Of a DNA stretch of 6,198 nt, positions 3 to 4,410 are shown one piece after another. Position 1 is the stretch's first letter. Each line of letters opens with the position of its first letter. The position numbers and the translations under genes were made by a program. The notes below the pieces were generated by a model. It made no database searches and was not told where the DNA came from. It saw only the letters and a program-made list of their open reading frames with translations. This stretch comes from Candidatus Altarchaeota archaeon. Its GTDB lineage: Archaea; SpSt-1190. The stretch spans positions 1 through 6,198 of the forward strand of contig JAUUZA010000036.1 in assembly GCA_030590165.1 (NCBI GenBank), written 5' to 3'.

Positions 3-182
3 ATACGACATGAAAAAGATAATAAAAGTAAAATTATGTTCAATAAGCAAGCTGCATTCATGGGAAAAACAATGTTAGTCGATACCTATGATTTGAGTCC
101 AATGGGGGCCATTGTCTTAGACATAGTGGATTTCGGAGATGAATTTGTAAAATGGCTCACTGGATACGAGAGAAATCTATAA
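3..182 (+). CDS. 3' end of an unrecognised protein-coding gene (5' truncated by the window)
   Basis: An open frame runs from the window edge to a TAA at 180-182 and gives 59 residues. It contains the stretch KTMLVDTYDLSPMGAIVLDI and ends in WLTGYERNL. I do not recognise the family. The alternation of hydrophobic residues with D and G looks like folded protein rather than a chance frame, and the other plus-strand frames close early here. An ATG at 36 could begin a 48-residue protein, but the frame stays open upstream of it, so a truncated longer gene is more likely. Its last 26 bases overlap the 3' end of the DP1 gene on the other strand, a tail-to-tail arrangement. Function is unknown. Confidence refers only to its being a real gene. 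Confidence 0.5.
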   Translation: MRHEKDNKSKIMFNKQAAFMGKTMLVDTYDLSPMGAIVLDIVDFGDEFVKWLTGYERNL

Positions 183-1605
183 TCTTTGAGTTACCATCAC
201 TCAAATTCATTACAATAAATTGACCTGGTGTTGGTTCGTGACCTAATTTTTCTTGAAAGTCAGTAATATTCTGAAATGTTCCACTCGAAACTAATTTCAC
301 TCCCTTGTATGAACTAAGACTAACATTATGAATATGACCAGTATGAAAAACATGTGGAACTTTATTTATTACCATGAAATCTTGTTTGTCTGGGAAAATT
401 TTGTTTTTTCCAAAAATTGGAGAAAGGTGCCTCTTTTTCAATAATTGAATTTGAGCTAAATAAGGCCTATGATATGCATTATTACGAATGGATTCAATTG
501 CATCAATCACACCATCAAAACTTGTACCATGATACATCAAAATATTAATACCTTCAACATCAATCCAAGATGGATTTGAATATACTTCTAAATTATCAAT
601 TTTTTTTAGTGGTTTTCCAAAAACTTCAGGAAAAACTGGTTGTGGTTCTGAATCACGGTTGGGGTCATGATTCCCACTTATTACAAAAATTTTAACATCA
701 TGTCTAATCTGTTTCATATATTTAGCAAAGACCTCCATTTGTTCTTCAACTGTTTCAATGTCGAGATGTTCATTTTGTTTGTAATACATCCCAACTCCAT
801 CTACAACATCACCAGCAATAAACACATATTTGACTTCTTTATGTTCCTTTAACCATGAAATAAATCTTTCCCAGAGTTCAACCATAAATTTTTTTGAGCC
901 AACATGTAAATCAGAAATAAAAACAGCATAAGGACGCTCTCCAACCGGCCAAGTAATAGGAGTTATTTCTGGAAAAAATATAGCGTTTGCAAATAAAATT
1001 CCCCCACCAGTTCCAGGAAATCCTTTAATCCCAATAACTTCATCACAAACTATATCCCCTCTTTCAGGAATTGTTGTTGGAATTAAAATTGTAATTGAAC
1101 CTGACAAATCTTCAACAGTAAGAAAACGCCTGCCGTCCTTATTTTCTCTAATATTTCTAACCATCCCAATTATACTCAACTCTTCCCTAGTTTTAATCCG
1201 TGAAATTTGTGAAATAGAAATTGTGTTTTTCATTTGTGGTCTCTTCCACAAAAGTTGAGAAAGTGCACGATATCTATATGTAAAATGAGATATGAAATTT
1301 CCTGGTGTGACTGGGTCCCAATTTAAATAAGTTTTAAGTGCTCTATATTTTTGACCATCTAATTTTGTGTTATTTTGGAATAAATCATCTTTTTCAGCGA
1401 CATAAGTATTATTTTTTAGATTATGAAGAAAAGTTGATGTTATTTCACTTGGAATCTTATCCATTGCAAGAAGTTTATCCATAAGAAGTGAATCTGAACT
1501 CAAAAAACTAAAAGCCTCTTCATAAATTACACGAACTCCTCTTTGAAAAATTCTTTCAACTTTTTCCCTATTTGAATCTTGTTTCATAAATGCTTCGAGT
1601 CCCAT
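157..1605 (-). CDS. polB: DNA polymerase D (PolD/Pol II) small subunit DP1, Mre11-like 3'-5' exonuclease
   Basis: This is the proofreading subunit of the archaeal replicative polymerase PolD; it pairs with the catalytic large subunit DP2, which is not in the window. Residues 1-120 are a mostly helical N-terminal region. About 125-215 form an OB fold (RRFLTVEDLSGSITILIP at 159-176). About 225-460 form a calcineurin-like phosphoesterase domain. All its metal-site motifs are present: SDLHVGS (D232, H234), GDVVD (D266), GNHD (N312, H313), YHG (H359) and GHIH (H424, H426). The exonuclease site therefore looks intact, unlike the inactivated eukaryotic B subunits. At 482 residues it lies at the short end of the family, through a brief N-terminal region. 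The ATG at 1605 has GGTGG seven bases upstream, which supports it over the in-frame ATG at 1587. It overlaps the cdc6 stop by one base (TAATG), so the two are probably co-transcribed and translationally coupled. Archaeal symbols vary (polB, dp1, polD1). Confidence 0.96.
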   Translation of the reverse strand: MGLEAFMKQDSNREKVERIFQRGVRVIYEEAFSFLSSDSLLMDKLLAMDKIPSEITSTFLHNLKNNTYVAEKDDLFQNNTKLDGQKYRALKTYLNWDPVTPGNFISHFTYRYRALSQLLWKRPQMKNTISISQISRIKTREELSIIGMVRNIRENKDGRRFLTVEDLSGSITILIPTTIPERGDIVCDEVIGIKGFPGTGGGILFANAIFFPEITPITWPVGERPYAVFISDLHVGSKKFMVELWERFISWLKEHKEVKYVFIAGDVVDGVGMYYKQNEHLDIETVEEQMEVFAKYMKQIRHDVKIFVISGNHDPNRDSEPQPVFPEVFGKPLKKIDNLEVYSNPSWIDVEGINILMYHGTSFDGVIDAIESIRNNAYHRPYLAQIQLLKKRHLSPIFGKNKIFPDKQDFMVINKVPHVFHTGHIHNVSLSSYKGVKLVSSGTFQNITDFQEKLGHEPTPGQFIVMNLSDGNSKIIDFSRIQ

Positions 1606-2789
1606 TAAATTTCCACCAAAAGTTGTTCAATGTCGTCTTTAATATTTCCTCCGATTTTCAGTTCAACAACTTTAGTTCGTCCATACCTACCCCTAGATAT
1701 AACACTTGTACCCACAACCCCAGAGGACTCAAACTCACCTAAAATATCAAGAACTCGCCTCATAGTAAGTCCCTTAGCTCCAATTTTTGAAACATTTTCA
1801 ATATACTTATTATAAATTTCTCTAGTATACACAACCGGTTTGTCAAGCTCAATTATAGCTTTTAAAACATTTTTTTGATGTTCTGGAAGAGTTTTTACAA
1901 ATGAAATAATTTGATCTGTATTAAATTTCCCAATTGCAACTTCAACATGTTTTCTTAAGACTTTATTTGAGGCTTCACGCTCCGCAATCTCCGCAGAAAT
2001 TCTTAGGAGTTCAATGGCTCGCCTAACGTCACCATGATTTTTGGCAGCGGACGCAGCACAAAGTAAAATTACTGAATCATTAATTGCACCTGGCGAAAAC
2101 GAAATATTACTTCTATCTTGGAGTATGTCTTTGATTTGATTTGCATTATACGGCGAAAAAATAATTTCTTCTTCTGAAAGACTTGATTTTGTCTTAGCAT
2201 CAAGATGACTCATTATACTCAAATCATTAGTTATACCTATGATTGAAAGTTTTGAATTTTTGAGTTCTGAATTAATTCTTGAAAGAGTATAAATTGTATT
2301 TGGGCTTTTTTCAATTAAAACATCAATTTCATCAAGAGCTAAGATGTAAACTGCAGGTTTACTGTCGAGTGCTTTTATCATTCTATCAAAAACTGAACTC
2401 GTAGGAATACCAGTATCTGGAATAAAATCTCCCATCCTCCTACAAAGATAAGCATAAAGTCTATACTCAGTATCTGCTATTTTTTTCAAGCCAGAATTAA
2501 CATATAAAAATTTTACTGGAATATTTTTATCTTGAGCTATTTTTTGGAGTTGTGAACCGACATATTGAACTACTGCTGTCTTTCCAGTTCCAGGTCTCCC
2601 ATATAAAAACACATTCGAAGGATTTTCAAGTCGTAGTGAAGGTGCTAAAATTTGAGCTAAATGCTTAATATGATTTTCACGGTGTGGTAAAACATCTGGT
2701 AAATATGAAGATTGTAAAAAATCTTTCCTTGCAAAAATTACACTCCCAGACGCATAAAAATTGAATATTTTTTCTATATCTGTTTTCAC
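1605..2789 (-). CDS. cdc6: Orc1/Cdc6 replication initiator (AAA+ ATPase with winged helix)
   Basis: It binds origin repeats (ORB boxes), melts or remodels origin DNA and recruits the MCM helicase. With the GTG start it has 394 residues, typical for the family. Residue numbers here count from the upstream TTG at 2804; subtract five for the GTG start. Walker A is GRPGTGKT (69-76), Walker B LALDEID (155-161), sensor 1 IIGITND (188-194) and sensor 2 GDVRRAIELLR (258-268). Residues from about 300 form the winged helix, with wing RGRYGRT (371-377). The usual DxRvkSS of box VII reads DAKTKSS, with Lys at 204 in place of Arg. Start: no ATG is in frame. TTG 2804 would give five extra residues. GTG 2789 lies where a leaderless mRNA would begin, about 26 bases downstream of the centre of a TATA-like box, so I prefer it. 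It is the first gene of an operon with DP1 and faces away from the candidate origin. Confidence 0.96.
   Translation of the reverse strand: MKTDIEKIFNFYASGSVIFARKDFLQSSYLPDVLPHRENHIKHLAQILAPSLRLENPSNVFLYGRPGTGKTAVVQYVGSQLQKIAQDKNIPVKFLYVNSGLKKIADTEYRLYAYLCRRMGDFIPDTGIPTSSVFDRMIKALDSKPAVYILALDEIDVLIEKSPNTIYTLSRINSELKNSKLSIIGITNDLSIMSHLDAKTKSSLSEEEIIFSPYNANQIKDILQDRSNISFSPGAINDSVILLCAASAAKNHGDVRRAIELLRISAEIAEREASNKVLRKHVEVAIGKFNTDQIISFVKTLPEHQKNVLKAIIELDKPVVYTREIYNKYIENVSKIGAKGLTMRRVLDILGEFESSGVVGTSVISRGRYGRTKVVELKIGGNIKDDIEQLLVEI
1613..1617 (-). promoter_or_regulatory. Shine-Dalgarno site of the DP1 gene
   Basis: GGTGG on the minus strand lies seven bases before the DP1 ATG, inside the last codons of cdc6. 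It resembles the archaeal GGTGA/GGAGG motif that pairs with the 3' end of 16S rRNA. It fixes the DP1 start at 1605. Confidence 0.75.
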
Positions 2790-2809
2790 ATCTCTATTAC
2801 ACAAAAAAA

Positions 2810-2826
2810 GTTTATATTTGTTTGTC
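2810..2826 (-). promoter_or_regulatory. Probable TATA/BRE promoter of cdc6-DP1
   Basis: Read on the minus strand, GACAAACAAATATAAAC gives an A-rich BRE-like stretch followed by a TATA-like box (AATATAAA, 2818-2811). The box occupies roughly -29 to -22 from the GTG at 2789, the spacing expected if transcription starts at the start codon. No ribosome-binding motif precedes the GTG, which fits a leaderless mRNA. An ORB-like dyad begins two bases upstream of the BRE-like stretch, so an initiator bound there could block TBP/TFB. Confidence 0.5.
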
Positions 2827-2827
2827 G

Positions 2828-2900
2828 TTCCTATGGCATTACTTCCTTTGGAACATAACCTTCATTTCCTATGGAACCTCCCCTTAATTTCTAATGGAAC
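2828..2900 (+). repeat. Four direct ORB-like dyads (left arm of candidate origin)
   Basis: Copies are TTCCTATGGCA (2828-2838), TTCCTTTGGAA (2843-2853), TTCCTATGGAA (2866-2876) and TTCTAATGGAA (2889-2899). The last three are each followed by C and start exactly 23 bp apart, close to two helical turns, which would place bound proteins on one face of the DNA. The second and third match TTCCnnTGGAA perfectly; the first and fourth each differ at one position. A CCTCCCC tract follows the third copy (2877-2883). The G-tract of classical ORBs follows the dyad on the same strand, so this tract has the opposite strand sense. Confidence 0.75.
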
Positions 2901-2930
2901 TTTTTTTAAAAATATTTATCGATTTAAATC

Positions 2931-2944
2931 TTTCAATATTGAAA
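2931..2944. repeat. 14-bp perfect palindrome, copy 1
   Basis: TTTCAATATTGAAA is a perfect palindrome at the left edge of the A/T segment. A copy with one mismatch lies at 3032-3045. The sequence differs from the ORB-like dyad, so a second protein may bind it. The adjacent winged-helix gene product is the obvious candidate, by inference only. Confidence 0.5.
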
Positions 2945-3001
2945 AAATTATATATAGATATTACTATATAGATATAATATTAATATATAATATATACATA
3001 T
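2945..3001. other. A/T-only segment, candidate DNA unwinding element
   Basis: Only 5 of the 60 bases at 2941-3000 are G or C. The segment includes an 11-bp direct repeat, TATATAGATAT, at 2951-2961 and 2965-2975 (14-bp period), followed by a TAATATATAATATATA run. Low melting stability and a position between opposed ORB-like sites fit the role of a duplex unwinding element. No convincing frame or start codon reads through it. Confidence 0.6.
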
Positions 3002-3013
3002 GTTCCATAAGAA
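3002..3013 (-). repeat. Inverted ORB-like dyad (right arm of candidate origin)
   Basis: On the minus strand this reads TTCTTATGGAAC. It differs by one base from the fourth left-hand copy (TTCTAATGGAAC) and by one from the third (TTCCTATGGAAC). Its inverted orientation and its place on the far side of the A/T segment give the usual arrangement of initiator sites facing a melting region. Confidence 0.6.
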
Positions 3014-3031
3014 ACCAAGGACTGTGTGTTT

Positions 3032-3045
3032 TTTCCATATTGAAA
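3032..3045. repeat. 14-bp palindrome, copy 2, abutting the winged-helix gene promoter
   Basis: TTTCCATATTGAAA matches the copy at 2931-2944 at 13 of 14 positions and starts 101 bp after it. It ends just before the TATA-like box of the 3076 gene and covers the BRE position, a place where a bound repressor would block transcription. Confidence 0.45.
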
Positions 3046-3055
3046 ATTTTTTAAA
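3042..3055 (+). promoter_or_regulatory. Probable BRE/TATA promoter of the winged-helix gene
   Basis: GAAAA (BRE-like, 3042-3046) is followed by TTTTTTAAA (3047-3055), which begins 29 bases before the ATG at 3076. There is no ribosome-binding motif before the ATG (AAATCAAATAAAAAT), so a leaderless mRNA is likely. The box is a weak match to the archaeal TATA consensus. Confidence 0.4.
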
Positions 3056-3075
3056 CTCTTAAATCAAATAAAAAT

Positions 3076-3567
3076 ATGAAATTCGGTTTAATATTAAATG
3101 GGCCTGTTGAAGACCTTAAATTTAGGGCTAATAAACTCAATCCAAATGTTCCTCTAATTATTATTGATGAAAATACTTATGATGATGTAGACCTTTTTGT
3201 TGTATTTGTTTTTGAACCCTTTAGAAAAAAGGCAGAGCATTTCAATGAACTTCGTTTACAAAAGAAAATTTCACCTTTTGCAATAATGGAATTTCCTCTT
3301 CATAAAGTTAGACCTATAGTAAAAAATTCAGTTAGGTCAAGAATAGTAGAAATATTAAAAGACGGAAAGGCATATGGATATCAAATTTTTAAAAAATATA
3401 AAGAAAGATATGGTAAAATTTCAATTAGATTAATTTATTATCATTTACAAAAAGGTGAAAAAGATGGTTTATTTGAGAAGGTTGAAATTGAAGAAAAGTC
3501 AGGAAATTTTTCTTGGGGTGGAACGGTTAAACACAAATATTACAAATTAAAGTTCCTTGTGGATTAG
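3076..3567 (+). CDS. Small protein with C-terminal PadR-like winged helix, origin-linked, function unknown
   Basis: It encodes 163 residues with no membrane segment or signal peptide. The N-terminal part (1-80) alternates strands and charged helices (MKFGLILNGP; VPLIIIDENT; VDLFVVFVFEPF) and looks like a small alpha/beta domain that I do not recognise. Residues 86-158 resemble a PadR-type winged helix: RIVEILKDGKAYGYQIFKKY, then ISIRLIYYHLQKGEKDGLFEKV as recognition helix and following turn, then a wing with KHKYYKL. DNA binding is therefore likely; whether it is a regulator or a replication factor is open. It is transcribed away from the candidate origin, divergently from cdc6, and one of two related palindromes touches its promoter, so autoregulation is plausible. 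Its last 21 bases overlap the 3' end of the opposing membrane-protein gene. No other upstream start is in frame close by, and base use matches the neighbours. Confidence 0.85.
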   Translation: MKFGLILNGPVEDLKFRANKLNPNVPLIIIDENTYDDVDLFVVFVFEPFRKKAEHFNELRLQKKISPFAIMEFPLHKVRPIVKNSVRSRIVEILKDGKAYGYQIFKKYKERYGKISIRLIYYHLQKGEKDGLFEKVEIEEKSGNFSWGGTVKHKYYKLKFLVD

Positions 3568-4410
3568 GAAATTTCCAATTATGGCGGGAAGCCAGAGGTT
3601 GAAGAATCTAAAAACAAAAACACCACCAACTGCGGCGGTTTGATTTACTCCAAGACTGATAAGGTATGCTGGAACGGCCACCTCATAAAAACCTATACCT
3701 GCTATTGTTGGTGTTGTGGTCATTATTCCTATTCCCATTATTAGTGCTTTTAATCCGTTTACAAAACTACTACCAGTAGCAACACTTAATGCGGCGGCGC
3801 TTGAGAAAAATTGAATAAAACTAATAATTAAAAGAAAAAAGATAGACCGGACATTCAAAAGGGATTTGAGATTTTCACTAAAATCTTTCAAAATATTAAG
3901 AAATTTTATATTGGGAATTTTATGAGAAAATTTTACAAATAAAAAGGTGAGAAGTAGTAAGATACAGAGAGCAATAAAAAGAAAAATATTGTATTGACCA
4001 AGAAAAAGTGCAAACATAATTCCAGTCACAAAAAGACTAATAACAATTTCACCGACATAGGCCGTCATTGCTTGAGACAAAATAATTCCTTTCTTTTTAA
4101 GATAATAAATTTTTATAGAATCACTAAATCTTATCATAGAAAAAACAGGAGAAAGGGAAATAAAATAACACTTAAATACAGTCCAAAAATTGATTAAACC
4201 TCCTTGTTTTTTAATTAAATACTTTAAACGGAAGGTCCCTACAATTACTGAAAGGAGAATAAACAAAAAAGTTAATAGGATACTTAGATTTAATTGTATT
4301 GCATAATAAAAACTTTCCACTAATATTTCTCGATACCTATATATTCCAAAAGGTATTAAAACCCCTAGTATCAGCTTAAGCCATTGCACATGAAATAGTG
4401 CATGACGCAT
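3547..4410 (-). CDS. Flippase-like integral membrane protein (UPF0104 / LPG synthase TM-domain, AglD-type)
   Basis: The 287 residues are almost entirely hydrophobic, with about eight likely membrane segments (around 11-25, 41-62, 75-92, 117-137, 140-161, 188-208, 215-235 and 258-283). The C-terminal signature TTPTIAGIGFYEVAVPAYLI, followed by GVNQTAAVGGVFVFRFFNLW, is that of the COG0392 family. This family covers the membrane part of bacterial lysylphosphatidylglycerol synthases and the archaeal AglD/AglR proteins, which are linked to dolichol-sugar handling in N-glycosylation. The soluble synthase domain is absent, so a role in moving or modifying lipid-linked molecules is the best guess; substrate unknown. 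The ATG at 4410 has no ribosome-binding site. The in-frame GTG at 4389 has TTTTTTAAA starting 29 bases upstream, as for the 3076 gene, and would give a 280-residue protein beginning just before the first membrane segment. Either start is possible. It overlaps the winged-helix gene at its 3' end and is divergent from rpl3. Confidence 0.87.
   Translation of the reverse strand: MRHALFHVQWLKLILGVLIPFGIYRYREILVESFYYAIQLNLSILLTFLFILLSVIVGTFRLKYLIKKQGGLINFWTVFKCYFISLSPVFSMIRFSDSIKIYYLKKKGIILSQAMTAYVGEIVISLFVTGIMFALFLGQYNIFLFIALCILLLLTFLFVKFSHKIPNIKFLNILKDFSENLKSLLNVRSIFFLLIISFIQFFSSAAALSVATGSSFVNGLKALIMGIGIMTTTPTIAGIGFYEVAVPAYLISLGVNQTAAVGGVFVFRFFNLWLPAIIGNFLIHKEL

Follow-up and report, generated by a model that had tools for sequence, protein, structure and literature searches.

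Archaeal replication origins of the Orc1/Cdc6-ORB class (oriC1 type) lie beside the cdc6 gene and contain an AT-rich duplex-unwinding element (DUE) framed by opposed ORBs, each made of a core and an AAGG tail (PMC4010727). In Sulfolobus, a second DUE motif, ucm, is required for origin activity and is bound by UBP, a protein that is not an initiator; the ucm/UBP system appears to assist MCM in its departure from the origin (PMC12141716). In haloarchaea, the ribbon-helix-helix transcription factor CdrS controls ftsZ (PMC7439475, PMC8406309). The origins and cell-cycle control of DPANN archaea are nearly unstudied, and few of these organisms have been cultured; nothing specific on DPANN origins, on PadR proteins at archaeal origins, or on a DPANN cell-cycle regulator was found in the open-licence literature. 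The locus described here has the familiar ORB layout and, inside its DUE, a 14-bp palindrome, TTTCnATATnGAAA. This box recurs in other tiny-genome DPANN archaea, both at their origins and beside genes for cell division and DNA topology, and, judging from its distribution, is probably bound by a regulator encoded by the neighboring gene. As far as was searched, the DUE box and its candidate regulator are undescribed in the open literature.

The window, that is, the whole stretch of DNA analyzed, is an entire contig of 6198 b from a MAG of 724 kb (64 contigs; 87.6% complete), referred to as G000; genomes G002, G004, G005, and G006 belong to its family, and G003 and G008 belong to the same class. 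The initial annotation had named the gene beside the repeats as the initiator, in an operon with the exonuclease subunit of the replicative polymerase, and profile matches to Cdc6 and the polymerase D small subunit bore this out (Table 1). The order of cdc6 followed by the polymerase D small-subunit gene was common to G005, G006, and G002, and the window Cdc6 shared 72% identity with that of G006. Translation of cdc6 likely starts at the GTG at about 2788, from which the relatives align, rather than at the TTG at 2804, which gives the longest frame. On its other side, the 288-b intergenic region (23% GC) is bounded by a winged-helix (wHTH) gene, followed by a membrane protein gene and, beyond that, the ribosomal protein genes L3 and L4.

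Table 1. Features of the window (positions numbered from the first base of the contig)
Feature	Position	Strand	Sequence	Remarks
Polymerase D small (exonuclease) subunit DP1	157-1605	-		NF003118, 1e-125; downstream of cdc6, one operon
orc1/cdc6 initiator gene	1605-2804	-		TIGR02928, 1.3e-109; Pfam Cdc6_lid and Cdc6_C
TATA-like box of cdc6	2811-2819	-		TATAAA columns kept in relatives (alignment)
ORB3	2836-2853	-	TTCCAAAGGAAGTAATGC	Weaker; ATGC tail conserved
ORB2	2859-2876	-	TTCCATAGGAAATGAAGG	Exact to ORB pattern
ORB1	2882-2899	-	TTCCATTAGAAATTAAGG	Genome pattern scan and shuffle test
AT-rich DUE	2900-3002	.		10 G/C in 97 bases (2907-3003)
Box C	2931-2944	.	TTTCAATATTGAAA	Palindrome inside DUE; 30 bp from box B
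Box B	2961-2974	.	TTACTATATAGATA	Degenerate, 2 mismatches; relatives have TTTCnATATAGTAA or TTTCTATATAGAAA
Inverted ORB	3003-3020	+	TTCCATAAGAAACCAAGG	Genome pattern scan and shuffle test
Box A	3032-3045	.	TTTCCATATTGAAA	About 30 bp before wHTH start codon; same place in G002, G003, G004, G005, G006
PadR-like wHTH gene	3076-3567	+		wHTH, aa 81-160; N-terminal CoaD-type nucleotidyltransferase remnant; predicted binder of boxes A to C
LPG-synthase-type membrane protein gene	3547-4410	-

Five copies of an 11-bp repeat had been described in the intergenic region, four direct (at 2828, TTCCTATGGCA; 2843, TTCCTTTGGAA; 2866, TTCCTATGGAA; and 2889, TTCTAATGGAA) and one inverted (at 3003, TTCCATAAGAA). 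All five were present, and the spacing of exactly 23 bp among the copies at 2843, 2866, and 2889 was confirmed, but the outermost copy (2828-2838) was unconserved, the corresponding stretch in the relatives being the ATGC tail of ORB3, and was rejected as an ORB; the robust count is therefore three direct and one inverted. On the cdc6 strand, the repeats extend to 18-mers with a mini-ORB core and an AAGG tail, making them full ORBs. The intergenic region held three such 18-bp ORBs with two or fewer mismatches, a number reached in 0 of 5000 dinucleotide shuffles (expected, 0.015). The exact 18-bp pattern had three matches in the whole MAG, all in this intergenic region, and three matches with one mismatch were scattered elsewhere. 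The short form that the initial annotation had proposed for a genome scan, TTCCnnTGGAA, had seven forward sites genome-wide, compared with seven for the reversed control, so it was dropped as origin evidence in favor of the longer ORB. The proposed alignment of related genomes gave a positive result: three direct ORBs and one inverted ORB, spaced by 22 to 24 bp, recurred upstream of cdc6 in related genera (G006, G005, G004, and G002), with the same winged-helix gene as in the window on the opposite side of the origin. The center of the core varied freely among these relatives, and the suggested lineage-specific box was accordingly rejected, the change from AG to TA being ordinary drift of a variable core. 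As had also been proposed, the repeats flank an AT-rich segment; of all 60-mers in the window, the one with the lowest GC content (4 G/C) starts at 2935, within the DUE.

Two other loci bear on the number of origins. Two opposed ORB-like 18-mers, each with one mismatch and 232 bp apart, were found on contig 35 (G000:C35:15708-15957, at 15708 and 15940; L038:6709-6958). They lie in and between ordinary protein-coding ORFs, and no AT-rich core accompanies them; a second origin there is unsupported, and the matches are probably due to chance. The window's family also has a second, shorter Cdc6 paralogue, encoded beside a truB/cbf5-type pseudouridine synthase gene (L242 to L245, in G005, G006, G004, and G001, respectively); its loci had neither ORBs nor boxes, and a search of the window's own MAG did not return it.

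Archaeal Orc1 proteins are able to regulate their own genes, and the region could accordingly be read as no more than a divergent promoter whose ORBs are autoregulatory, with the active origin elsewhere. This is very improbable, given that the ORBs are opposed around a DUE, have no exact match elsewhere in the genome, and are conserved and that the second Cdc6 paralogue has none. The features that define an Orc1/Cdc6-ORB origin, namely, an adjacent orc1/cdc6 gene, opposed ORBs around an AT-rich DUE, and a genome-specific, conserved ORB cluster, were all found here. From this layout, positions 2805-3075 are almost certainly the site at which the chromosome of this small-genome archaeon begins to replicate, in line with the origin proposed in the initial annotation, and the origin appears to be of the ordinary Orc1/Cdc6-ORB type described for archaea (PMC4010727). 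By analogy with known archaeal origins, ATP-bound Orc1/Cdc6 would bind the ORBs and load MCM into the DUE.

The initial annotation had missed the palindrome TTTCnATATnGAAA, which occurs exactly at 2931 and 3032 and in degenerate form at 2961. The two exact sites were the only ones in the whole genome of the window, where the palindrome is thus confined to the origin and no cell-cycle regulon was seen. Elsewhere in the class, exact sites were similarly few (one each in G002, G003, and G008 and two each in G004, G005, and G006; controls, 0). Every exact site of G000, G002, G004 to G006, and G008 fell in the intergenic region between cdc6 and the wHTH gene, and the sole exact site of G003 lay about 34 bp before the wHTH gene, where the contig breaks. 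All three boxes held their positions across the window's family, with boxes B and C separated by 28 to 31 bp in the five family genomes compared. The box B variant was also present in the origin of L042.

The winged-helix gene, which had served only as a landmark, proved more interesting than any other part of the locus. AlphaFold2 gave a confident winged helix for residues 81 to 160 of its product (pLDDT mostly 73 to 94) and a poor model of the N terminus. In Foldseek searches with the domain model, PadR regulators were the best matches (6abq, E = 4.7e-5; 3hhh; 9qbd), and RTP and archaeal RosR ranked lower; the score against Pfam PadR (PF03551) was 18.6 bits, below the gathering score of 27. 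PadR proteins dimerize through a C-terminal helix; the monomer model of the window protein had no helix after the wing. The descent of the N-terminal half is suggested by G008, in which the gene divergent from cdc6 across the origin (L126:1003-1743) encodes a CoaD-like nucleotidyltransferase joined to this wHTH domain; the fusion protein has both the HxGH and the SSTRIR motif and matches phosphopantetheine adenylyltransferase (NF001985, 7e-17). A profile of the wHTH proteins of the window's family likewise matched genuine CoaD over the N-terminal half. Both motifs were absent from the window protein, which looks like a wHTH joined to a truncated CoaD remnant.

Beyond the window's class, TTTCnATATnGAAA was concentrated upstream of cdc6. 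Among 106 archaeal cdc6 loci, 16 had the palindrome within 500 b upstream of cdc6, with 20 sites in total, compared with 1 site in the remaining 638 kb of those loci. It was by far the commonest palindrome of its shape in these upstream regions, followed by simple TA runs (seven loci). The named carriers were mostly Woesearchaeota; relative to the direct ORB, the box sits upstream, within AT-rich sequence. The wHTH family (profile A3) was present as a single copy in all 12 DPANN-type genomes that have a box no more than 700 b upstream of cdc6; it was found in 10 of the 24 other genomes of the same set (14 negative) and, among another 39 archaea, in 2 (37 negative). One genome, G047, had three cdc6 loci (L072, L213, and L214), each with a box upstream, and no box besides these three; it may be a mixed bin.

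The wHTH gene lies near cdc6 not only in the window's class but also in G020 and L042, and it is mostly unlinked to cdc6 in Woesearchaeota. Outside the window's class, the box was found at the promoter of the wHTH gene itself in exact form in six genomes (G044, G051, G052, G042, G076, and G066) and with one mismatch in four (G045, G047, G074, and G075); at about half of the examined wHTH loci, the promoter had no box within one mismatch. A PWM trained on the wHTH-promoter boxes alone was then scored on cdc6 upstream regions, where its median was 17.5 in 22 genomes with the wHTH gene and 5.4 in 50 genomes without it (Mann-Whitney P = 3e-8); with only DPANN genomes as negatives, P was 4e-4. Genomes with the wHTH gene and no exact origin box mostly had a close variant at the same place, such as TTACTATATAGAAAAT; a good box was missing upstream of cdc6 in G067 and in G059, for which the upstream stretch is incomplete. 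These patterns suggest that the wHTH protein probably binds the palindrome. Alternatively, the palindrome could be a conserved DUE element read by another protein, with the wHTH gene co-occurring through shared ancestry. On the Cdc6 tree, the wHTH trait changed about eight times with only two supported independent pairs, and the tree-aware association over those two pairs, an underpowered test, averaged 0.7 in the same direction and 0.0 in the other. With so few supported independent pairs, much of the co-occurrence is accounted for by common descent, and the phylogenetic independence of the association is weak. The many wHTH promoters with no close box and two DPANN loci with a one-mismatch box and no wHTH gene also fit a different reader. 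That reading is nonetheless distinctly unlikely, considering that six wHTH genes unlinked to cdc6, all from outside the window's class, have an exact box, that the wHTH gene and cdc6 are physically linked in the window's class, G020, and L042, and that a PWM derived from wHTH promoters is able to predict origins.

In some Woesearchaeota, the box was also found at other genes. Exact sites numbered 16 in G044, 16 in G052, 22 in G063, and 6 in G051, with none for reversed-pattern controls. Of 58 sites examined in four Woesearchaeota-type genomes, 5 fell within an ORF (about 75% at random) and 33 lay 10 to 150 b upstream of one (11% at random). Apart from cdc6 and the wHTH gene, which recurred across genomes, the neighbors included the following: the FtsZ gene (G049, G051, and G052); the gyrase genes for GyrA (G043 and G052) and GyrB (G063); the SMC gene (G044); genes for DHH/DHHA1 proteins of the RecJ/Cdc45 superfamily (G044 and G052); an RNase Z/tRNA endonuclease gene (G042, G043, and G052); and, as single cases, the genes for CTP synthase, adenylosuccinate synthase, and a histone. 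The GyrA frame of L167 (G052) holds a LAGLIDADG domain, probably that of an intein.

The main rival to a role at the origin is that the boxes are ordinary wHTH operators, those upstream of cdc6 serving cdc6 transcription only and having no part in initiation. Elsewhere, the box does stand at promoters, including that of the wHTH gene, mostly 20 to 120 b before start codons. The copies upstream of cdc6 differ from these promoter-proximal targets, lying 128 to 673 b before the gene, beyond the ORBs and inside the DUE; this distance and placement, together with the constant spacing of the box pair in the window's family, make a purely transcriptional function unlikely, although it deserves to be taken seriously. 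The chance that the box matters for initiation is put at about even. The preferred explanation, an Orc1/Cdc6 origin combined with a box-binding wHTH autoregulator, is likely on the whole. In this explanation, a dimer of the adjacent PadR-like protein would bind the palindrome twice in the DUE, at boxes B and C, whose separation is about three helical turns, and would also bind box A at its own promoter, repressing or activating its own gene. The protein would then be an architectural or licensing factor of the origin, in a position like that of the ucm element in Sulfolobus.

In some Woesearchaeota, the reach of the wHTH-box pair may extend to ftsZ, smc, and the gyrase and DHH-phosphoesterase genes, which would couple replication, chromosome topology, and division. 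A broader proposal, held tentatively at slightly less than an even chance, is that DPANN archaea possess a cell-cycle regulator of this kind: an autoregulated PadR-like wHTH that would read TTTCnATATnGAAA both in the origin DUE and at the promoters of these genes, coupling them to initiation. In this reading, the protein of the window's class was fused to a CoA-biosynthesis-type nucleotidyltransferase domain, whose catalytic motifs were kept in G008 and lost in the window's family and which might once have tied initiation to a metabolite. If the proposal is true, a small protein and a 14-bp site would make origin-accessory factors and the transcriptional coupling of replication to division testable in vitro without culturing.

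Two further observations concern origins of other lineages. A different palindrome, TATAACAnTGTTATA, occurs exactly or with one mismatch near ORBs upstream of cdc6 in lineages without the wHTH gene (L015 in G013, L017 in G035, L018 in G027, L019 in G022, L051, and L101) and may represent another class of origin box; this palindrome also stands at cysteine desulfurase (iscS/nifS-type) genes in G013, G022, and G071, in the last of these divergent from a small HTH gene. In addition, an apparent TrmB-type HTH gene lies divergently upstream of the inverted ORB at several origins of the Woesearchaeota type (L054, L060, L065, L075, L106, L119, and L214), as judged by eye from translations.

Among regulators, the wHTH protein resembles CdrS as a candidate archaeal regulator with a predicted ftsZ target and differs in being a winged helix by its model, not a ribbon-helix-helix; to our knowledge, no origin box is known in the CdrS system. 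In bacteria, DnaA and CtrA each bind both the origin and the promoters of cell-cycle genes, and this dual reach is the parallel with the role predicted for the wHTH protein, to which they are unrelated. PadR/RosR regulators are its best structural matches and are likewise small, palindrome binding, and often autoregulated, whereas the window protein has a subthreshold PadR score, a model without the dimerization helix, and a link to an origin. Among origins, the window shares with the Orc1/Cdc6-ORB class its cdc6-adjacent DUE and opposed, tailed ORBs and adds palindromes B and C within the DUE and box A at the divergent winged-helix gene. The closest parallel is ucm/UBP, in which a short, conserved second motif likewise lies within a DUE bounded by opposed ORBs, recurs at other sites in the genome, and has a proposed accessory origin protein; the likeness drawn here is one of place in the DUE, and sites number tens at most per genome for the window-type box versus hundreds for ucm. 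If the proposed role is true, ucm, the DPANN box, and possibly TATAACAnTGTTATA would suggest that a second, non-ORB DUE element is general in archaeal origins. The candidate binder is modeled as a PadR-like winged helix, whereas UBP is strand swapped, saddle shaped, and beta rich; because the folds differ, the wHTH protein would be an analogue of UBP rather than a member of its family.
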